From positions 1-64,000 of the forward strand of contig CANLUH010000001.1 of assembly GCA_947494205.1 (NCBI GenBank): a stretch of DNA of 64,000 nt. Direction: 5' to 3'. Shown here piece by piece: positions 31,719 through 63,628 of the stretch. The notes under the pieces are model-generated. The model saw only the letters and a list, made by a program, of their open reading frames with translations, searched no databases and was not told the DNA's origin. A program made the translations under genes and the position numbers. Within the stretch, counting starts at the first letter, position 1. Every line of letters begins with the position of its first letter. Origin of the DNA: an uncultured Flavobacteriaceae bacterium (lineage in GTDB: Bacteria; Bacteroidota; Bacteroidia; Flavobacteriales; Flavobacteriaceae).

Positions 31719-31823
31719 TTTAAATTTGTTTTGAGAGTGATTATGAATTAAGGTCTTAATCTTATCCTTCGATAATCGTTAACCTCTCAGTTGATACTTG
31801 TGTTAAATATTTTTTTCAGTCTG

Positions 31824-46979: not shown

Positions 46980-48674
46980 GTGCAAAAAAAATCTTTCTTT
47001 TTATTTATCGTTGTTATTTTCTGTTTTAAGAAATTATATTCCCAAAATCTAAACCTAGAGATTATTGGAAAAGATACAACTGAAACAAAACTACTAAATA
47101 CTTACAACTACAATAAAACTTTAACAGACTATAATGCAATCACTATAGAAATTGACTCTCTTAGAAAAACACTTTTTAAAACTGGTTATATTGAAAACAG
47201 ACTTCTATCTTTAAAAAGAACTAATGACAGTTTATTTACCTCCACCATAGCACTCAACACAAAATACGAGACCATAACTCTTCATTATAATAGTAACGAA
47301 ATAGATAAGAGCATAACTGATTTAGTTTCAAATGACAATTCAGATTCTCATTTCACCATACCTTTTACTTCTACAGAGAGCGTTTTAAACTTTATCAATT
47401 CTGAAATAGCAAAAAAAGGATTTCCATTTACTAAACTCAGGCTTTCTGAAATAAAAATAAAAGACAATAAAACACTTGAAGCCAATATTGTTATCATTAA
47501 AGACAAACAACAAAGAGGCCTCGACAAAATTGTTATAAAAGGTTACGAGAAATTCCCTAAGTCTTACCTAAAACGATTTTTAAAAATTAAACCTGAAGCT
47601 ATTTTTAATATTGAAGACATAAAAAAACGTATACAAACTCTAGACAATCTTCGATTCGCAAATACAATTAAAGAGCCGGAAGTTTTATTTACAAACGATT
47701 CCACCCAACTGTATCTTTATATAGAAAAAACACTTAGTAACACTTTTGATGGTTTTTTAGGCTTTAGTACTAATGAAGAAACTAATAATATAGAGTTTAA
47801 TGGCTATTTAAATTTAGAATTAAATAACAATTTTAATTATGGCGAATCGTTTAGACTACTTTATAAGAGTGATGAACTTGAGCAAAAAAACTTTGAAGCT
47901 AGACTAAACCTTCCTTATTTATTTAACACACCTATTGGTACAGAATTAGAATTAAACATCTTTAAAAAAGATTCCTCTTTTACAACTATTAACCAAAAAG
48001 CAAAACTTTATTATCAATTAGACGCAAAAAGTAAAGTGTTTTTAGGAATCGATACTACAGAGTCTAACAATCTTCTTGATAACGAAAGCGCTTTTAATGT
48101 TGATGATTATAAATCTAGGTTTTATATTTTAAAATATGATTTTGAAAACAGACGCAATTATAACAGGTTATTTCAAGTAAACTCTCTCGTTAATATTGAA
48201 GCAGGTTTCGGAAGTCGAGACTTAAATAATACAACAGAAGAACAAACTAAAGTATCCCTAAATGCACATCATATCTTTAATTTAAATCGTAATAACAGTA
48301 TTTTTTTAAGGTTTAATGGAGCCCTCCTTACTTCTGATTCTTTTTTAGAAAATGAGTTAATTCGTTTTGGAGGTATCAATTCCATTAGAGGTTTTCAAGA
48401 AAACAGCCTAACTGCAACTCTATATGGTGTATTAAACACAGAGTATCGTTACAAATTAAGCAATAGTATTTACGCACATTCTATTATTGATTATTCTAGA
48501 CTAGAAAATAAAATTACATCTCAAAACGAAAACCTTTATGGTTTTGGTCTTGGATTTGGCATTATTACCAAGGCTGGACTATTGAAATTTAATTTTGCAA
48601 ATGGAAAAACGCAAGACCAAAGATTCAAATTTTCTAATTCTAAGATTCACTTAAGTTTAGTGGCCATTTTTTAA
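46980..48674 (+). CDS. Outer membrane protein, BamA/Omp85-like
   Basis: A 564-residue exported protein with a GTG start, signal peptide (FFLFIVVIFCFKKLYSQ, cut near Q) and probably one POTRA-type domain (about 185-255, KGYEKFPKSYLKRFLKIKPE then NIEDIKKRIQTLDNL). The rest is a beta barrel with the Omp85 loop-6 motif in FGGINSIRGFQENSLTATLY and terminal aromatic residue. It may insert or secrete outer membrane proteins or lipids. It is divergent from the ribosomal array. Family assignment is from the motif, the exact substrate unknown. Confidence 0.78.
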   Translation: MQKKSFFLFIVVIFCFKKLYSQNLNLEIIGKDTTETKLLNTYNYNKTLTDYNAITIEIDSLRKTLFKTGYIENRLLSLKRTNDSLFTSTIALNTKYETITLHYNSNEIDKSITDLVSNDNSDSHFTIPFTSTESVLNFINSEIAKKGFPFTKLRLSEIKIKDNKTLEANIVIIKDKQQRGLDKIVIKGYEKFPKSYLKRFLKIKPEAIFNIEDIKKRIQTLDNLRFANTIKEPEVLFTNDSTQLYLYIEKTLSNTFDGFLGFSTNEETNNIEFNGYLNLELNNNFNYGESFRLLYKSDELEQKNFEARLNLPYLFNTPIGTELELNIFKKDSSFTTINQKAKLYYQLDAKSKVFLGIDTTESNNLLDNESAFNVDDYKSRFYILKYDFENRRNYNRLFQVNSLVNIEAGFGSRDLNNTTEEQTKVSLNAHHIFNLNRNNSIFLRFNGALLTSDSFLENELIRFGGINSIRGFQENSLTATLYGVLNTEYRYKLSNSIYAHSIIDYSRLENKITSQNENLYGFGLGFGIITKAGLLKFNFANGKTQDQRFKFSNSKIHLSLVAIF

Positions 48675-48747
48675 GAATTACTCAAAAATCCCTCTTAATT
48701 TCAAATTTAACGTCTAAAACTTTGTTTTATTTAGTTATTATATGTAA

Positions 48748-48773
48748 TTTTTCCCTGGACTAATTCACATAAA
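48748..48773 (+). promoter_or_regulatory. Promoter-like motif shared by both SusC genes, copy 1
   Basis: TTTTTCCCTGGACTAATTCA followed by CATAAA; the second cassette has TTTTTGGCCTAGACTAATTC then AAATAAA at 55581-55607. GACTAATTCA is identical in both, which lie upstream of paralogous operons. It is probably part of the promoter or an operator; it does not fit TAnnTTTG exactly. Confidence 0.45.
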
Positions 48774-48776
48774 ACC

Positions 48777-48972
48777 CGAGTTTGATTAATTAAACAATTA
48801 ATTTAAAGCGAGTTACAACACTAAAAAACACCCTTAACCATTCATTTATAGTGTTGTTCTAAAATCTTATTACATCTTAACTACAGAGATTTTCTGTTTG
48901 CATGTTTCTATTCAAAATTTAAACATATAAACTGCCTATTTATACAATTATCTATTGTGTAAATCAAACTCG
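48777..48972 (+). ncRNA. Candidate structured mRNA leader (cis-acting) of the first SusC gene
   Basis: A perfect 11-bp pair, CGAGTTTGATT (48777-48787) with AATCAAACTCG (48962-48972), would close a 196-nt domain. Inside it lie four hairpins: ACAACACTA/TAGTGTTGT (48815-48823 with 48849-48857), ACAGA/TCTGT (48883-48887 with 48893-48897), ATGTTT/AAACAT (48902-48907 with 48921-48926) and ACAAT/ATTGT (48944-48948 with 48954-48958). AT-rich DNA gives hairpins by chance, so this is a hypothesis; the long-range 11-bp pair is the strongest part. Confidence 0.35.
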
Positions 48973-48993
48973 AGAAAAACAATAAAAACAAAT

Positions 48994-51900
48994 ATGAAAA
49001 CAAAAACTAGTGTAATTTTAACGCTATTTCTAGCGTTAGCTGTGCAATTATCCTATGCGCAAGAAAAAGAAATCTCAGGAACGATTTCGGACCAAAATGG
49101 CGTCCCACTTATTGGTGTCAATATTTTTGAAAAAGACACAAGTAATGGAACCCAGAGTGACTTTGATGGTAACTACAAACTCAATGCAGAAGTAGGAAAA
49201 ACAATTGTCTTCTCCTCATTAGGTTACAAAACAGTTGAACAAACTGTAGGAGACACCAACACAATTAATGTTACTATGCCAGAAGAAGCTGGCCAATTAG
49301 ACGAAATTGTAGTTACAGCTTTAGGTGTAAAGCGTAAACAAGAAAATATTACTTATGCCAACGAGGTTGTTAAAGGAGACCAAGTTAATCAAGCCGCAAA
49401 CTCTAATGCAATTCAAGCTTTAGCTGGAAAGGTATCAGGTTTACAAATTAATACATCAGGCTCAGGTGTAAACCCTAACAAAAGCATCATATTAAGAGGG
49501 TTCTCTTCTATATCAGGTGGAAATAGCGCTTTAGTTGTTATTGATGATGTTATATCAACAACAGCAACTTTAAACAATATTGACCCAAACTCAATAGAAT
49601 CTGTTAATGTTTTAAAAGGCCCTGTAGGAGCAGCATTATATGGTTCTCGAGCGGGTAACGGTGTTATAATAGTTACCACAAAAAAAGGAAGTAAAGGTGG
49701 TAAATTAATTGTAGATTTAAAATCTACTCTTTCAATAGAAACTATTCAGTTTTTACCACAACGCCAAGATCGTTTTGGACAAGGTTGGGAAGGTGATTTA
49801 GACTGGACAGATCAGGGAGCATGGGGTCCAGAATTTGATGGCTCATCTCAAGTTACAGGAATACCTTACCCAACAGCATCAGACTGGAGATTTGCTAGAT
49901 ACGAACATATAGAAGATAACATTAAACCTTTTTTCGATACTGGTGTAGAAAAACAACAAAGCATTACTTTATCTGCAGGTAATAGTGAGGGCTACGGAAA
50001 TTTCTCTTACAATTTTGTAGAAACGGAAGGATTAATTCCTGGAGACAGAAGAACTCGTAACTTCTTTAATTTTAGTGCAGGAAAAACGTTAGGTAAATTT
50101 AATATAAAAGGTATAGCTCGTTACACTACAACAAAATCTGACATAGTTACTGGTGGAACCTATTTCAATTTATCTCAAACACCTACAAATATAGATGTTA
50201 CTCAATTTGCTTCAGGAGACAATGTAGATAACTGGACATTATACGCAAGAAGTCCATATTGGAATTTAAAAAACAGTAGAGCTCTTGGTAATACTGCGAG
50301 ATTTGAAGGGAATTTAGATTTAGGATATGATATTAATGACAATATTAATGTAATTTTAAGGACTTCGGTGAATACTACTAGAGGAGATAGTAGTGCTTAT
50401 AATAATGATTTTGTAGATACTAATATGTATCAGTTTTTTGATAGAAGTATTGTTTCCTCATACAGTTCTACAAGAAATGGGTTCCAACAACTTTATACAG
50501 ATCTTTTAACAAACCTAAATTACGATTTATCAGAAAACATTTCTTTTAACGGACTTCTTGGATACAACATGACTGCCACTAAATCTGATAGCGGAACAAT
50601 AAGCGGAACAGAACTAACAATTCCAGGGTTATATAATATTGGTAATGCTGCAGAGCTAAATGACCCTACAGAGACTAGATCTGTACTAAGAGGGCAATCG
50701 GTTTTTGCTAGTGCAGAATTTGGGTATAAAAACTATTTAACTGTATTATTTACAGGACGTAACGATTGGTTTAGTCAATTATCAAAAGCTGAAAGAAGTA
50801 TATTCTATCCTTCTGCTTCTTTTTCTTTTATCCCAACAAAAGCATTCCCTAGCATAAAAAGCAAATGGTTAACTAGTGCTATAATTCGTGGAGGATGGAC
50901 ACAAGTTGCTAACGTAGGTGGGGTTGGAGCTTTCGCCATAAACGAAAGAGCATTTTCACCAAATGGTTTTCCATTTTCTGGAGCAGGAAACTCTTTCATT
51001 GGAGTAACAAGTTTAACAGATGAAAACATTACACCAGAAGTTGTAACAACTTATGAATTAGTTGGTAATTTCGATTTATTAAGAGTTAATGGTAGACCAA
51101 GAATTAATTTAGATCTTGCTTACAGTTTTCAAACGAACAAAGATCAAATTTTAGGCACTACACCATCAAGTTCTTCAGGATTATTTAATGCAACCGTAAA
51201 TGTTGGTGAAACTGAAACATCTTCTTTCGAACTTGATTTAGGTTTTACTCCTATAAAAACAGAGAACTTCGAATGGAATGCACGTATTGGCTATTCAACA
51301 TATGAAACAAGAGTAAATAAAGTTACAGATATTTCTGAAAGTGTAACAACTGCAAGCACAGGAACTGTTGGAATTGTCGCACAAGTGGGAGAAGCTTGGC
51401 CTTCAATACAAGGTACTGCATACCAAAGAGACGATCAAGGACGTGTTATTATCGATGATAACGGAAGCCCAATTCGTTCTAACGATTTAGAAATATTAGG
51501 AAAAATCGCTCCCGACTACATATTAAACTTCAACACTTCTGTTAAGTATAAAGGGTTTACTCTAGGAGCAACACTAGATTACAGAACTGGCCATGTATTT
51601 CACTCTGGAGTAGCAAGGAATTTAAATGGCATAGGTGGCACTGTCGAATCGGCTATTAATGGTCGTGAACCTTTTGTATTTCCTAATTCCACAGTTCAAG
51701 GCTCTGGAGTTACCAACACTACAGTTTTAACAGGAGGAGCTTCACCAGCTGCTTTCCAAAGCTATGTAACAGATAACTACGGTTACTTTGATGAAAACTT
51801 TATTATTGATGCTACTGCACTAAAAATAAGAGAAGTTGCATTATCTTATGATTTAAATCAAGAGACTTTAAAACAATTAGGATTAAATAAATTAAGTCTT

Positions 51901-52044
51901 GCTATTGCAGGTAGAAACCTATATACATTTTTACCTAGAGCAAACAGAAGTTATAACGACCCTGAATTTGGCGGAGGTCTAGGCTTTTACAGTGTAACCC
52001 CACCAACAAGGTCTTTTGCCTTAAGTTTAAACGTTGCTTTTTAA
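48994..52044 (+). CDS. SusC/RagA-family TonB-dependent outer membrane receptor (cassette 1)
   Basis: About 1016 residues from the start at 48994, whose signal peptide is MKTKTSVILTLFLALAVQL (cut near YAQ). Next come a carboxypeptidase-like beta-sandwich (ISGTISDQNGVPLIGVNIFE, DFDGNYKLNAEVGKTIVFSS), a TonB-box region (DEIVVTALGVKRK), the plug (KSIILRGFSSISGGNSALVV) and the barrel ending SFALSLNVAF. It imports a polymer or oligomer together with its SusD partner, using TonB energy. The open frame extends 13 residues further upstream, unlikely to be used. Ligand unknown. Confidence 0.93.
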   Translation: MKTKTSVILTLFLALAVQLSYAQEKEISGTISDQNGVPLIGVNIFEKDTSNGTQSDFDGNYKLNAEVGKTIVFSSLGYKTVEQTVGDTNTINVTMPEEAGQLDEIVVTALGVKRKQENITYANEVVKGDQVNQAANSNAIQALAGKVSGLQINTSGSGVNPNKSIILRGFSSISGGNSALVVIDDVISTTATLNNIDPNSIESVNVLKGPVGAALYGSRAGNGVIIVTTKKGSKGGKLIVDLKSTLSIETIQFLPQRQDRFGQGWEGDLDWTDQGAWGPEFDGSSQVTGIPYPTASDWRFARYEHIEDNIKPFFDTGVEKQQSITLSAGNSEGYGNFSYNFVETEGLIPGDRRTRNFFNFSAGKTLGKFNIKGIARYTTTKSDIVTGGTYFNLSQTPTNIDVTQFASGDNVDNWTLYARSPYWNLKNSRALGNTARFEGNLDLGYDINDNINVILRTSVNTTRGDSSAYNNDFVDTNMYQFFDRSIVSSYSSTRNGFQQLYTDLLTNLNYDLSENISFNGLLGYNMTATKSDSGTISGTELTIPGLYNIGNAAELNDPTETRSVLRGQSVFASAEFGYKNYLTVLFTGRNDWFSQLSKAERSIFYPSASFSFIPTKAFPSIKSKWLTSAIIRGGWTQVANVGGVGAFAINERAFSPNGFPFSGAGNSFIGVTSLTDENITPEVVTTYELVGNFDLLRVNGRPRINLDLAYSFQTNKDQILGTTPSSSSGLFNATVNVGETETSSFELDLGFTPIKTENFEWNARIGYSTYETRVNKVTDISESVTTASTGTVGIVAQVGEAWPSIQGTAYQRDDQGRVIIDDNGSPIRSNDLEILGKIAPDYILNFNTSVKYKGFTLGATLDYRTGHVFHSGVARNLNGIGGTVESAINGREPFVFPNSTVQGSGVTNTTVLTGGASPAAFQSYVTDNYGYFDENFIIDATALKIREVALSYDLNQETLKQLGLNKLSLAIAGRNLYTFLPRANRSYNDPEFGGGLGFYSVTPPTRSFALSLNVAF
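49019..49038 (+). other. Hairpin inside the signal-peptide codons of SusC 1
   Basis: TAACGCTA (49019-49026), loop TTTC, TAGCGTTA (49031-49038): a perfect 8-bp stem in the codons for the LTLFLA stretch, about 25 nt after the start codon. The same hairpin is in the second SusC (55641-55658). Confidence 0.6.
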
Positions 52045-55284: not shown

Positions 55285-55614
55285 AGCACAAATTTAACCC
55301 TTACATAACATTAAATATTTAAGATAATTTAGTAGTACCCTACTCAAGGAATGAAAAAACAAGGGTAATCCTAAGCTACATTTAACATTTTCACACTATA
55401 AAGAAGCTAATAATGCCACTTAATTAGAATAATAATTATAGAATTAAATTATTTTCAAAACTTTAACAAACCCTAAATAGCACCTAGTTTTAGGCATATT
55501 ACTGATGCTTATTGCATAAATTAACACTTGATATTAAAAAAATGTACTAAAAAAATTGTTTTATTAACATTAAATTAGGATTTTTGGCCTAGACTAATTC
55601 AAATAAATTATAAA
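55285..55614 (+). other. Spacer between the two SusCD cassettes
   Basis: 330 bp without a convincing gene. It has a small hairpin, CCTAAA (55472-55477) with TTTAGG (55489-55494), and the promoter-like motif at 55581-55607. No equivalent of the folded leader of cassette 1 is seen, as the motif is only 7 nt from the ATG. Confidence 0.6.
55581..55607 (+). promoter_or_regulatory. Promoter-like motif shared by both SusC genes, copy 2
   Basis: TTTTTGGCCTAGACTAATTC then AAATAAA, 7 nt before the start of the second SusC. See 48748-48773 for the copy in front of cassette 1. Confidence 0.45.
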
Positions 55615-58600
55615 ATGAAAACAAAGTTTAGTGGAATTTTAACGCTATTTCTAGCGTTTGTTGTGCAACTAACGTTCGCACAAGAAAAATCAATTTCAGG
55701 AACGATATCCGATGAAAACGGATTACCGATGCCTGGAGTAAGTGTTCTTGTTGTTGGTACAAGTAACGGTACACAAACAGATTTTGATGGTAATTACTCA
55801 TTATCTGCAAGTGTAGGAGATGTCATAGCATACTCTTCAATCGGTTACAAATCAGTAAATAAAACAGTAGGAGCATCAAATAATATCAGTTTTGGTATGG
55901 AGGTTGACGTTACAGCTATAGATGAAGTTGTAATTACGGCACTTGGTATTAAAAGAAAGAAAGACGCTGTAACAGGTGCATACCAAGAAGTAAAAACAGA
56001 AGAACTTGCTAAAGCAAACAACCCAGACGTAGTTAAAGGTTTAGCTGGTAAAGTATCTGGATTACAAATTACACAAAACTCTAATGGTGTAGGTTCTGGA
56101 GGAACACGTATCGTTTTACGTGGTAACAGATCTATTTCTGGTAACAACCAAGCTTTAGTTGTAATTGACGGAGCTATTTCTGATACTGGATTCTTAAATG
56201 CATTAGATCCAAACCAAATAGAAACTGTAAATGTTATTAAAGGTGCATCAGGTTCTGCATTATATGGTCAGCAAGGATCAAATGGTGTAATTGTTGTAAC
56301 AACAAAAAAGACATCTAAAGACGCATCTAAAATGACTGTTTCTATTAACAGTTCATTAGATTTTGAAACAGTTTCTTTTGTTCCAGAAAGACAAACTCGT
56401 TACGGACAAGGATGGGATTTAGGAAATGGTTTTGAAAACGTTATCTACGAAAATGGTGGATGGGGACCTGAATTTGATGGACAAATTGTTCCTGTAGGTT
56501 TACCACAAGCAGATGGTACTTTTATTACTGCACCATATAGCTCTAGAGGTAGCGATCACATTAAAGAATTCTTTTCTACTGGTTTAACAAGACAAAACTC
56601 TTTTTCTATCGCTTCTGGTGATTCAAATGGATATGTTAAGCTTGGAGCAAGAAATGTTAATAGAGGATTCATTATAGAAGGTGATAACCGTAAGCAAAAT
56701 ACATTAACTTTCAACGCAGGGAAAACTGCTGGAAAGTGGAGTGTTGGAGCTGATATCATTTATACTAATGCTTCTATTGAAAGACATAATGGAGATTTAT
56801 ATACTCAATTATTACAATCTGCTTCTAACATTCCAATTACTGCTTTTGCTAACTCTGGAAATGAAGGTCACTGGAATGCATACTTTACTAATCCTTACTG
56901 GAATTTAGCAAATCAAAGATCAGAAACAGAATCTAATAGATTAAGTTTACAAGGAACATTAGATTATCAAGTTAACGATAACATCTCACTTAGACTTTTA
57001 AGTAATGCTAGAATTAATGATTCTAACGGATTAAGCTATCAAAATGCTTATGATGAGCCACAAGATATTATCGACAATACAGGAGCAAACAGATCATTAG
57101 CATCTAACTTCAACTATAATGGGTCAAGAAGTAGTAACTACTATACTGACTTTTTTATCAACTTAGATTATATGCTTACAGATGACATCTCTTTTGCTGC
57201 AAACATTGGTTTAAACAATCAATACAGCAAATTCAGTTCTGTTAACTCTGGAGGTTCTGGTTTAACAATTCCTGGATTATATACTTCAAGTAACATTAGT
57301 AATGTTGCTAACGTAAATTCAACAGATAATAGAGGGCAAAGCTCTAGTATTGGTGTTTTCGCAAACATTGATTTCGGTTATAAAGATTACTTATACTTAA
57401 ACCTTACAGGTAGAAGAGACTGGGTATCTGTACTTTCTAAAAGCAATCAAGCGTTCAACTACCCAAGTGCTAGTGTATCTTTCATACCAACAAAAGCTAT
57501 TGATGGTTTAAAGAGTAATGTATTAAACTACATGAAAATTACTGCTGCTTATACTTCTGTAGGTAACGGTTCTCAAGTTGCTGCTTTTAACATTAATCCG
57601 TTATTAAATCAAGCACCAGGTTTCCCATTAGGTGGACAAAACTCTTTCGTAGTTGATAGAAGTGTAACAGATCCTTTTATTAACCCAGAGTTTATCGATA
57701 CTCAAGAAATTGGTATAAACTTAGGATTATTTAATGACCGTGTAACATTAGACGCTAGTTATTCTGCATTCCAAGGTAGAGATCAAATTACAAGAATTAA
57801 CACTTCTGCTTCTTCAGGTTTAAATAATATACAACTTAACATTGCAGAATCTGAAGGTTCGGCTATTGAACTTGATTTAGGATTAAAAGTAATTAAGACT
57901 GATGATATTAACTTTGATGTAAATATTGGATATGCTAATAACGAAAACAAAGTAATCTCTGTATCTGATCAATCAGATTCAGTATCATTAGGTGGTTTCA
58001 CAGGTTTCGCTGAAGTATTTGCTATAGCTGGTGAAAATTATCCAGTAATTCAAACTAACTACTATGAGAGAGATCCTCAAGGAAGAGTTTTAATTAACCC
58101 AAATAATGGTAACCCAATAGAAGCTTCAGGTTTAAAAATAGCAGGAAGAACTACACCTAAGCATACAGTAAACTTAAATACTTCGTTTAGATATAAAGAT
58201 TTCACTTTCAGTGCAACTATGGATTACAGAACAGGACATGTATTCTATTCAGATACAAAGTCTAACTTAACTTGGTCTGGACACGCTGTAGAAACGGCAC
58301 AAGGTGGACGTGGAGCATTTATATGGCCAAATTCTGCTATTGAAACATCTCCAGGAGTATTTGAAGCTAACACTTCTGTACCTTCAGGAGGAACAAACGC
58401 AGGTTCTTACATTAACTTCTTTAACTTATATAGAGGAATTGGAGAGAACCATGTATTAGATGCAACTGCATTTAAAGTAAGAGAATTATCATTAAGATAC
58501 GATTTAAACCCAGATTTCTTAAAGAATACATTTGTTAGTGGAGTAAGTATTAGCGCTACAGCTAGAAATCCATTTATCGTATTACCTACTGAAAATAGAG

Positions 58601-58716
58601 GATACAATGATCCTGAAACTAGTTTCACTACAGGTAACGCACAAGGTATTACTACACAAGCTGGAAGTATTCCTGCTACAAGAACTTTTGGACTTGGTCT
58701 TAATGTAACATTTTAA
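55615..58716 (+). CDS. SusC/RagA-family TonB-dependent outer membrane receptor (cassette 2)
   Basis: 1033 residues. The signal peptide is MKTKFSGILTLFLAFVVQLT (cut near FAQ), a sequence strongly conserved across flavobacterial SusC proteins. Domains as in copy 1: carboxypeptidase-like (ISGTISDENGLPMPGVSVLV), TonB box (DEVVITALGIKRKKD), plug (TRIVLRGNRSISGNNQALVV) and barrel ending TFGLGLNVTF. It is paralogous to cassette 1, with nearly identical DNA in the first 70 nt but divergent later, so a duplication is old, or the start region is under a special constraint. Ligand unknown. Confidence 0.94.
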   Translation: MKTKFSGILTLFLAFVVQLTFAQEKSISGTISDENGLPMPGVSVLVVGTSNGTQTDFDGNYSLSASVGDVIAYSSIGYKSVNKTVGASNNISFGMEVDVTAIDEVVITALGIKRKKDAVTGAYQEVKTEELAKANNPDVVKGLAGKVSGLQITQNSNGVGSGGTRIVLRGNRSISGNNQALVVIDGAISDTGFLNALDPNQIETVNVIKGASGSALYGQQGSNGVIVVTTKKTSKDASKMTVSINSSLDFETVSFVPERQTRYGQGWDLGNGFENVIYENGGWGPEFDGQIVPVGLPQADGTFITAPYSSRGSDHIKEFFSTGLTRQNSFSIASGDSNGYVKLGARNVNRGFIIEGDNRKQNTLTFNAGKTAGKWSVGADIIYTNASIERHNGDLYTQLLQSASNIPITAFANSGNEGHWNAYFTNPYWNLANQRSETESNRLSLQGTLDYQVNDNISLRLLSNARINDSNGLSYQNAYDEPQDIIDNTGANRSLASNFNYNGSRSSNYYTDFFINLDYMLTDDISFAANIGLNNQYSKFSSVNSGGSGLTIPGLYTSSNISNVANVNSTDNRGQSSSIGVFANIDFGYKDYLYLNLTGRRDWVSVLSKSNQAFNYPSASVSFIPTKAIDGLKSNVLNYMKITAAYTSVGNGSQVAAFNINPLLNQAPGFPLGGQNSFVVDRSVTDPFINPEFIDTQEIGINLGLFNDRVTLDASYSAFQGRDQITRINTSASSGLNNIQLNIAESEGSAIELDLGLKVIKTDDINFDVNIGYANNENKVISVSDQSDSVSLGGFTGFAEVFAIAGENYPVIQTNYYERDPQGRVLINPNNGNPIEASGLKIAGRTTPKHTVNLNTSFRYKDFTFSATMDYRTGHVFYSDTKSNLTWSGHAVETAQGGRGAFIWPNSAIETSPGVFEANTSVPSGGTNAGSYINFFNLYRGIGENHVLDATAFKVRELSLRYDLNPDFLKNTFVSGVSISATARNPFIVLPTENRGYNDPETSFTTGNAQGITTQAGSIPATRTFGLGLNVTF
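55641..55658 (+). other. Hairpin inside the signal-peptide codons of SusC 2
   Basis: AACGCTA (55641-55647), loop TTTC, TAGCGTT (55652-55658), a perfect 7-bp stem in the codons for LTLFLA, the same place as in SusC 1. Confidence 0.6.
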
Positions 58717-61954: not shown

Positions 61955-61988
61955 AATAAAACCACCTCATTAGAGGTGGTTTTTTTAT
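61955..61988 (+). terminator. Terminator of the second SusCD cassette
   Basis: AAACCACCTC (61959-61968), loop ATTA, GAGGTGGTTT (61973-61982), followed by a T-run. It lies 25 nt after the last gene of the cassette. The longer ORF start of the next gene would begin inside it, which argues for the later start. Confidence 0.92.
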
Positions 61989-62008
61989 TTTTACAAAAAA
62001 TTGAAAAT

Positions 62009-63628
62009 ATGAAAACTATAATTACTCTAATATTTTTATTTATAGCATACACTTTTAATGCTCAAACAGTAGGAACTATATCCTTAGATTCGAATTTAGC
62101 TTATGACGGTTTAACGCTTCTAGCTCCAATAAATTCTAAAAAAACGTATTTAATTAATAACTGTGGAGAAGTTATTAACGAGTGGACCAGTACTGTGAAT
62201 GCAGGTAATTCGGTTTACTTATTAGAAAATGGGGATTTATTACGTGCAGGTAAAGTTGCTAATACAGATGTTAATTTTGGAGGTGTTGGCGGTAAAGTTG
62301 AATTATACAACTGGGAAGGAAATCTATTATGGGAGTATACATACTCAAGCTCTACAGTATCTCAGCACCATGATGTATACCCGCTGCCTAATGGTAATGT
62401 TTTAATGTTAGCTGTAGATACTATGAGTATGGCTGAAGCAACAGAAGCGGGAAGAGACCCTTCAATGCTAAGTGAAAGTAAATTATATAACGAACAGATT
62501 TTAGAATTAGAACCTGTAGGTACTAATCAAGCAAATATTGTTTGGCAATGGAATGTTAAAGACCATCTTATTCAAGATTTTAATCCTACTAAAAGTAATT
62601 TTGGTGTAGTAGCGGATAATCCACAATTACTAGATGTAAACTTTCTTAATCAAACTACAACACTTGCCAACTGGTTACATGTTAATTCTATTCAATATAA
62701 TGCAACATTAGATCAGATTATTTTAAGCTCACGTAACCTAAGTGAAATTTATATTATAGACCATTCAACAACTACAGCTGAATCATCTTCTCACTCTGGT
62801 GGTACTTATGGAAAAGGTGGTGATTTTTTATATAGATGGGGTAATCCTGAGTCTTATGATAAAGGTACAGCCGCAGATAGAACTCTAGACGGACAACATT
62901 ACCCACATTGGATTCCAGATGGTTTAACAGATGCAGGAAAAATAATGATATATAATAATGGTAATATGACTGCTGCTTCTTCTGTAGACATTATAGACCC
63001 AGCAACTAGTGCTTCTGGTGTGTATGTATATGATAGTACAGATGGCTATGGGCCAACTGAAGCAGAATGGAGGTATATGCAAACTCCTGCAACAGATTTT
63101 TTCTCTCCTATTCTATCTAGTGGGCAAAGACTTCCCAATGGGAATACGTTGATTTGTGATGGTGATAATGGTTACTTTTTTGAAATAGACCCTACTAATA
63201 CCATAGTTTGGGAGTATATAAATCCTGATACAATATCTGGTGTATTATCTCAAGGTGAAACACCTACTTTAAATATTGTTTTTAGAGCCTTCAAATATTC
63301 TTTGGATTATGCTGCTTTTACAGGTAGAGATTTAACTCCAGGACTTCCTGTTGAACAAAACCCTACAGGATGTAATCTTTTAAGTGTTACCGAGAATGAG
63401 TTATTAGACGCTTCTACTACTCTATACCCAAACCCAGTAGAAAACTTATTAACAATAAACTCTAAAAATGCAATTGAAAAAATAGAAGTATATAATATAC
63501 AAGGTCAAAAAGTTAAATCTGTTATAAATAGAAATACTATAGATTTAAGTACAGTTAATTCTGGCGTTTATTTAGTAAGACTATTCTCTAACGATAATTT
63601 AATAACTAGAAAGATTATTAAGCAATAA
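62009..63628 (+). CDS. Secreted arylsulfotransferase-like protein with type IX sorting domain
   Basis: About 539 residues from the start at 62009, with signal peptide MKTIITLIFLFIAYTFNAQ. The beta-propeller pattern and histidine-bearing SQHHDVYPLPNGNVLMLA, WIPDGLTDAGKIMIYNNGN and GQRLPNGNTLICDGDNGYFF fit the arylsulfotransferase (ASST-like) family, which moves sulfuryl groups between phenolic compounds. The last 70 residues (LYPNPVENLLTINSKNAIEK to ITRKIIKQ) are a type IX secretion sorting domain, so it is exported to the surface. The open frame also has an upstream ATG at 61976, inside the terminator and thus unlikely. Substrate not known. Confidence 0.85.
   Translation: MKTIITLIFLFIAYTFNAQTVGTISLDSNLAYDGLTLLAPINSKKTYLINNCGEVINEWTSTVNAGNSVYLLENGDLLRAGKVANTDVNFGGVGGKVELYNWEGNLLWEYTYSSSTVSQHHDVYPLPNGNVLMLAVDTMSMAEATEAGRDPSMLSESKLYNEQILELEPVGTNQANIVWQWNVKDHLIQDFNPTKSNFGVVADNPQLLDVNFLNQTTTLANWLHVNSIQYNATLDQIILSSRNLSEIYIIDHSTTTAESSSHSGGTYGKGGDFLYRWGNPESYDKGTAADRTLDGQHYPHWIPDGLTDAGKIMIYNNGNMTAASSVDIIDPATSASGVYVYDSTDGYGPTEAEWRYMQTPATDFFSPILSSGQRLPNGNTLICDGDNGYFFEIDPTNTIVWEYINPDTISGVLSQGETPTLNIVFRAFKYSLDYAAFTGRDLTPGLPVEQNPTGCNLLSVTENELLDASTTLYPNPVENLLTINSKNAIEKIEVYNIQGQKVKSVINRNTIDLSTVNSGVYLVRLFSNDNLITRKIIKQ

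Follow-up and report, generated by a model that had tools for sequence, protein, structure and literature searches.

The window analysed here is a stretch of 64,000 nucleotides from an uncultured Flavobacteriaceae bacterium, and it contains two SusC genes. The first SusC gene (48994-52044, plus strand) encodes a protein of 1016 amino acids that matched TIGR04056 with 489 bits and the Pfam domains Plug and CarbopepD_reg_2. The second SusC gene lies at 55615-58716. A protein of 550 amino acids that carries a sorting tail for type IX secretion (TIGR04183) is encoded at 61976-63628, directly after the second SusC/SusD gene set. For the genus comparison, the window genome was examined together with two metagenome-derived congeners, G001 and G002, labelled uncultured Bizionia sp. 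isolate 1139 and Bizionia sp. MAG-66. The upstream neighbour of the first SusC locus, a TamA/BamA-like gene, was 83% identical to its copy in G001 over 388 residues.

A promoter-like block was located at 48722-48752 (plus strand), with a TTG-type -33 part at 48722-48731 and the -7 box TAATTTTT at 48745-48752. This pattern was present twice in the genome, once ahead of each SusC gene, in agreement with a preliminary description in which both genes were said to have a promoter motif in common. The -7 box of this type is placed at -12 to -5 in the text of PMC9723704, and from its position here the transcript start was predicted at about 48757, upstream of 48787. The first SusC promoters of the two congeners carry a dyad between the -33 part and the box, which is perfect in G001 and may be an operator. 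The window promoter does not have this dyad.

At the predicted 5' end of the transcript lies the box GACTAATTCA (48758-48767, plus strand), a family-wide element that stands 226 nt before the ATG of the first SusC gene. The same box is found ahead of the second SusC gene of the window at 55592-55601, only 13 nt before the ATG, and this gene lacks a long leader, as previously described. Among 84 places in the SusC listing, 71 upstream regions were examined and 13 were left out; seven of the 71 had no ATG at the match start and were excluded from the box and hairpin counts, so 64 genes remained. In 56 of the 64 genes, the box ended 9-15 nt before the ATG (38 exact, 10 with one mismatch and 8 with two mismatches). 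Three genes with a long leader carried an exact copy of the box, at distances of 226, 230 and 214 nt before the ATG, and five of the 64 ATG-starting genes had no GACTAATTCA box. Since a -7 box at -12 to -5 places the transcript start at the GACTAATTCA box, the usual 5' UTR would be about 25 nt, close to the median of 24 nt given for Flavobacterium psychrophilum in the text of PMC9723704. Most related SusC leaders are therefore short with the box near the ATG, and the long leader results from a genus-specific insert between the box and the ATG. A third SusC paralogue was seen between the other two in G002 and G001 (L037 and L039), with a similar signal peptide, MKTKISGILTLFLAFA, and without the GACTAATTCA box in the upstream sequence inspected. 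The signal-peptide string of SusC was found in none of the papers of a literature search.

The inserted leader of the first SusC gene is closed by a perfect 11-bp long-range pair, P1, between 48777-48787 and 48962-48972 (plus strand, as are all elements of the domain). The pair was present exactly where the preliminary description had put it, and its 3' strand ends 21 nt before the ATG at 48994. The enclosed domain of 196 nt folded with -37.5 kcal/mol and a z-score of -5.30, and none of 200 dinucleotide shuffles was equally stable. The minimum-energy fold used 8 of the 11 closing pairs, with probabilities of 0.81-1.0 for these first eight, and the inner three competed with a small AT hairpin, P2 (48785-48802). 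Within the closing stem the fold contained five arms. The multi-arm interior proposed earlier was thus confirmed, with one arm more than the four hairpins originally counted.

The five arms differed in their support. P2 appeared only in the minimum-energy fold of the window, and no counterpart was present in the G001 and G002 folds. P3 (48815-48857; 48815-48823 with 48849-48857) had a counterpart in both congeners. P4 (48861-48893; 48861-48868 with 48886-48893) was a weaker arm, reduced to 4 bp in G001 and missing from the G002 minimum-energy fold. P5 (48896-48932) was drawn from the fold and the congener comparison as 48896-48900 with 48928-48932 and 48902-48907 with 48921-48926. P6 (48938-48964; 48938-48948 with 48954-48964) was the best supported arm. 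From the end of the domain to the ATG there is an A-rich stretch (48973-48993). A short upstream ORF in P5 and base pairing between the box and codons 6-8 were set aside, because on inspection by eye neither was kept consistently.

The significance of the closing pair depended on the space searched. Of 2000 dinucleotide-shuffled versions of the intergenic region, 96 contained an inverted repeat of 11 bp whose arms were separated by 100 nt or more, which makes the earlier chance estimate of about 0.03 a fair one. When the leader (48757-48993) was shuffled instead, 18 of 2000 versions contained such a repeat, and the count at anchored end windows was 3 of 2000. Without the closing pair, the interior of the window domain was weaker (z of -2.28, 2 of 200 shuffles), which bears out the earlier caution that AT-rich inner hairpins are cheap. 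In a fixed-frame scan, 69 of the 71 SusC upstream regions were scored alike and two were too short. The window z-score was the most extreme of the 69, with G002 third and G001 eighth, and two short-leader regions reached -4.0 and -3.6.

A DNA search of 149 genomes gave G001 (E 6.2e-11) and G002 (E 3.4e-7) as the best matches outside the genome of the window. These matches spanned promoter and box as well as the initial portion of the leader, and the next best match had an E-value of 1.5e-5 over 37 nt. In a protein search of the three genus genomes, the orthologues of the first SusC in G001 and G002 showed 52 and 51% identity, and their start codons lay about 200 nt past the DNA leader matches. 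The domain was present ahead of the orthologous SusC gene in all three genomes, with lengths of 202 nt in G001 and 187 nt in G002. The distance from the end of P1 to the ATG was 21, 22 and 21 nt in the window, G001 and G002, and the P1 pair probability was 0.98-1.0 at six of seven pairs in G001 and G002 alike. Stability exceeded that of the shuffled sequences in all three genomes (z of -5.0 in the window, -3.86 in G001 and -5.04 in G002; 0 of 200 shuffles each).

To compare the pairing, a reference structure of 49 pairs was taken from the G001 and G002 folds alone and mapped onto a sequence-only MAFFT alignment. Under this congener-derived structure, 30 of the 46 lettered pairs were standard in the window row, compared with only 11-20 of 44-49 when the partners were slid by 1-8 columns either way. 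Nine pairs were changed on both sides, a number that none of 500 shuffles matched, with a shuffle that ignores relatedness; slid structures gave 1-4. P6 was the clearest helix, with all eight aligned pairs standard in all three sequences and three of them changed on both sides. P1 was one base out of register in the window in the sequence-only alignment and mostly failed there. With a shift of 1 nt, 5 of its 7 pairs fitted, including one T-A to C-G replacement, and seven closing pairs particular to the window lie further inward. Three of the four P4 pairs fell in gaps of the window row.

The pairing profile of the whole domain in the window resembled those of the congeners to a degree reached by 0-1 of 400 shuffles when scored by distance and by 1-4 of 400 when scored by correlation. 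With P1 removed, the interior gave corresponding counts of 4-36 and 5-66 of 400. On this basis the overall shape of the domain has good support, and the individual inner helices have less. The leader identity between the window and G001 was only 40-47%, and pairing kept at this identity points to the shape, and not the sequence, as the feature that counts. The preliminary description had named conservation and covariation in relatives as the check to be made. The domain in three of three genomes and its compensated pairs answer in favour, with less certainty for the inner helices and on three sequences, two of which are close.

The minus strand of the domain also folded, with z-scores of -2.8, -4.0 and -3.6 in the window, G001 and G002, compared with -5.4, -3.7 and -5.1 for the plus strand, and in G001 it was slightly more extreme than the plus strand. 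The window row contained five G-U and five A-C cells. With the minus-strand fold and these equal counts, the leader data by themselves are compatible with selection on either strand. The plus-strand RNA is favoured, since the domain sits between the promoter and the start codon.

The distribution of the domain was limited to the genus within the genomes searched. A covariance model built from the three sequences recovered its own members with E-values of 4.7e-34 to 6.2e-55. With stricter filters, it found no convincing homologue beyond the genus in 299 sampled family genomes, where the best E-value was 0.019. Weak matches in ten family genomes outside the genus (E 0.019-0.97) and six further matches in the three genus genomes (E 0.06-8.4) were taken as chance, and no second copy of the domain was found in these three genomes at useful E-values. 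A 31-nt match was observed in contig 5 of G001. The pattern of box plus P1 occurred in 5 of 397 family genomes: all three genus members, plus two genomes in which the match is due to chance. One of these (G176) had no open frame and no SusC after the match, and the other (G230) was the short leader of an unrelated protein. A pattern match in Zwartia vadi was taken as chance on the organism alone, and no viral contig had the pattern.

Known families were searched as well. The window leader had no Rfam match at gathering score, the region 48600-49100 gave only matches with E-values of 4.3-5.2, far under the gathering scores, and the three genus loci gave none up to E 1. The only Rfam match of the window was an S4-Flavobacteria ribosomal protein leader (RF03141) at 31739-31777 on the minus strand. 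No terminator-like site was detected in 48600-49100, and the arrangement of an attenuator with an intrinsic terminator was thus absent there. Among the matches listed in a literature search, no paper on the leader structure of SusC in Flavobacteriaceae was found.

In a tree built from 30 SusC rows, the window's first SusC stood apart from those of G001 and G002, which were nested with SusCs from G327 and G232, members of other genera with a short leader. The second SusC genes of G001 and G002 were 87-100% identical to about +320 and 53-73% identical beyond. Receptor bodies thus appear, from sequence comparison, to have been exchanged behind a conserved start. Leader loss in other lineages is an alternative explanation for the tree, but it would not explain the break at +320. 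If the exchange reading is right, the leader would be a property of the locus and not of any single receptor.

A second structured element, outside the region first described, was found within the coding sequence. Sequence comparison revealed a family-wide hairpin in SusC codons 9-15, formed by AACGCTA and TAGCGTT (49020-49037, plus strand), and the second SusC gene of the window has the same hairpin at 55641-55658. In 54 distinct SusC sequences, 347 of the 378 pair cells were standard and 40 stems were complete, compared with a maximum of 259 cells and 3 complete stems in 1000 draws of a synonymous-codon null with codon usage from 20 ORFs of one genome, that of the window. The remaining 14 of the 54 stems were incomplete, and five of them had only 3 pairs. 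Ten cells were changed on both sides, against at most five in 500 shuffles; four of the ten were in two broken-stem sequences and six in five sequences with 6-7 pairs. The rare codons ACG and GCG, which account for about 6% of the codons for Thr and Ala in the set of ORFs taken from the window, were each kept in 53 of the 64 SusC genes. G-U cells (23) outnumbered A-C cells (2), which fits the mRNA strand, although the genetic code limits this test. Across 196 genomes of the order, the SusC start pattern (at most one mismatch) was present in 12 of 30 Flavobacteriaceae and in none of the 166 others, and all 18 starts recovered in this way were SusC-like.

With the leader domain ending at -21 or -22 and the coding hairpin beginning at +27, the two elements flank the zone from -20 to +20. 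According to the text of PMC6847099, this zone is low in structure in Flavobacterium johnsoniae, and structure within it tunes initiation. Its mean pairing was 0.16 in the window and 0.20 in G002, and in G001 it was 0.43, which is not low; the domain itself had a mean pairing of 0.56-0.59. With regard to an RNA thermometer or a masked start site, the ATG was outside the domain in all three genomes.

As two relatives keep the shape while most of the letters differ, the domain is very likely a real structured RNA region without an Rfam family. Judged from sequence and predicted folding, we consider it to be, with a probability of about one half, a structured 5' leader that works through its shape, heads the first SusC/SusD mRNA and governs how long this mRNA lasts or how ribosomes reach it. 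The domain would be transcribed within the SusC mRNA and act by its shape. Its folded body would occupy the leader to the border of the ribosome landing zone, and it may set the lifetime of the mRNA by shielding it from nucleases, as well as setting ribosome access. P1 would draw the box and the start region side by side. A regulator, if there is any, would be a protein or a nuclease that reads the structure and not a conserved ligand pocket.

The next most probable reading is a sensor leader, in which a riboswitch-like, small-RNA-bound or protein-bound element switches SusC/SusD expression on a signal. Such elements are commonly built as several arms enclosed by a closing stem. A cobalamin riboswitch is reported before a TonB-dependent transporter in F. 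psychrophilum (PMC9723704), and a 54-nt mRNA leader controls Roc of a Bacteroides polysaccharide utilization locus (PMC10294740). However, the leader had no Rfam match of weight and no terminator-like site, its start codon lies outside the domain, and little unpaired sequence is conserved between the window and the congeners. The differing receptor bodies behind the leader also make a receptor-specific ligand less likely. A shape-based leader is favoured over a ligand sensor because the shape is kept, the sequence is not, no terminator was found and the start codon is not enclosed, and we regard the sensor as unlikely. The preliminary description was borne out in part: its folded domain was confirmed, and its proposal of control by a ligand or a small RNA found no support in the Rfam and terminator searches, the position of the start codon or the identity of 40-47% to G001.

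The domain could instead be the relic of a MITE-like insertion with inverted ends, which is tolerated as it folds away and has little or no regulatory role. In favour of this, the domain interrupts a leader that is otherwise short, it has inverted repeats at its ends, and it was restricted to one genus within the genomes searched. Against this, the three genomes contained no second copy at useful E-values, no target-site duplication was recognised by eye, and pairs kept at 40-47% identity are unexpected for a neutral relic unless folding away is itself selected. We regard a relic as rather improbable.

An element acting at the DNA level, with inverted repeats that serve recombination or protein binding and are tied to receptor gene exchange, would account for the similar fold of the minus strand, the equal numbers of G-U and A-C cells in the window and the exchange of receptor bodies at these loci. 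However, at the second SusC of G001 and G002 the drop in identity falls at about +320, within the coding sequence, and the second SusC lacks a leader of this kind. Furthermore, several short arms are, to our knowledge, unlike known recombination sites, and such an element appears quite improbable. A chance product of AT-rich sequence with a fortuitous long pair is very improbable: P1 alone arose in 96 of the 2000 intergenic shuffles and the interior is just moderately better than shuffles, but a domain in the same place in three of three genus genomes with compensated changes, and the most extreme z-score of 69 upstream regions in the window, speak against it.

The shape-based leader can be placed in a broader and only tentative scheme, which we hold to be doubtful. 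The SusC mRNAs of the family would carry a two-part RNA start module, in which the box and the codon 9-15 hairpin flank the landing zone. In the genus, a third, folded-out domain would have been inserted between them, with a closing stem that rejoins the box and the start region, and the module would stay with the locus while receptor bodies are swapped, one RNA start serving whichever receptor is present. Should the domain act as an mRNA leader, it would be a structured SusC/SusD operon leader outside Bacteroides without an Rfam family. Its shape would then persist at one locus despite changes in its sequence and in the receptor that follows. The coding hairpin could bear on start control of nutrient-receptor genes in a phylum in which ribosomes dispense with Shine-Dalgarno pairing.

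Several known systems can be compared with the proposed leader. The ompA leader has two hairpins, with the Shine-Dalgarno site between the structure and the start. Elements of the Escherichia coli ompA 5' UTR stabilise the mRNA, as described in the text of PMC2777011. The likeness is that of a structured leader on an abundant outer-membrane-protein mRNA; ompA belongs to another phylum, whereas the SusC leader is a single closed multi-arm domain with a putative effect on lifetime. The cobalamin riboswitch (Rfam RF00174) had no match here at gathering score or, in 48600-49100, up to E 10. It resembles the SusC leader in its length of about 200 nt, its closing stem and its place upstream of a TonB-dependent receptor, and it is reported in a flavobacterium (PMC9723704, in the text of that source).

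The roc leader of Bacteroides thetaiotaomicron comes from the same phylum and is likewise an mRNA leader, in a polysaccharide utilization locus, with promoter-independent control of expression. It responds to sugars through BT4338 by an unknown factor. However, it is 54 nt long, and no multi-arm domain is described for it in the text of PMC10294740, the source of these statements. In F. psychrophilum, the text of PMC9723704 reports 64 structured 5' regions without an Rfam match, some of them conserved in other genera, and a SusC leader may be among the 64. Although the genes named in the text section used for this comparison differ from SusC, these regions and the leader described here are alike as structured leaders of unknown function within the same family.
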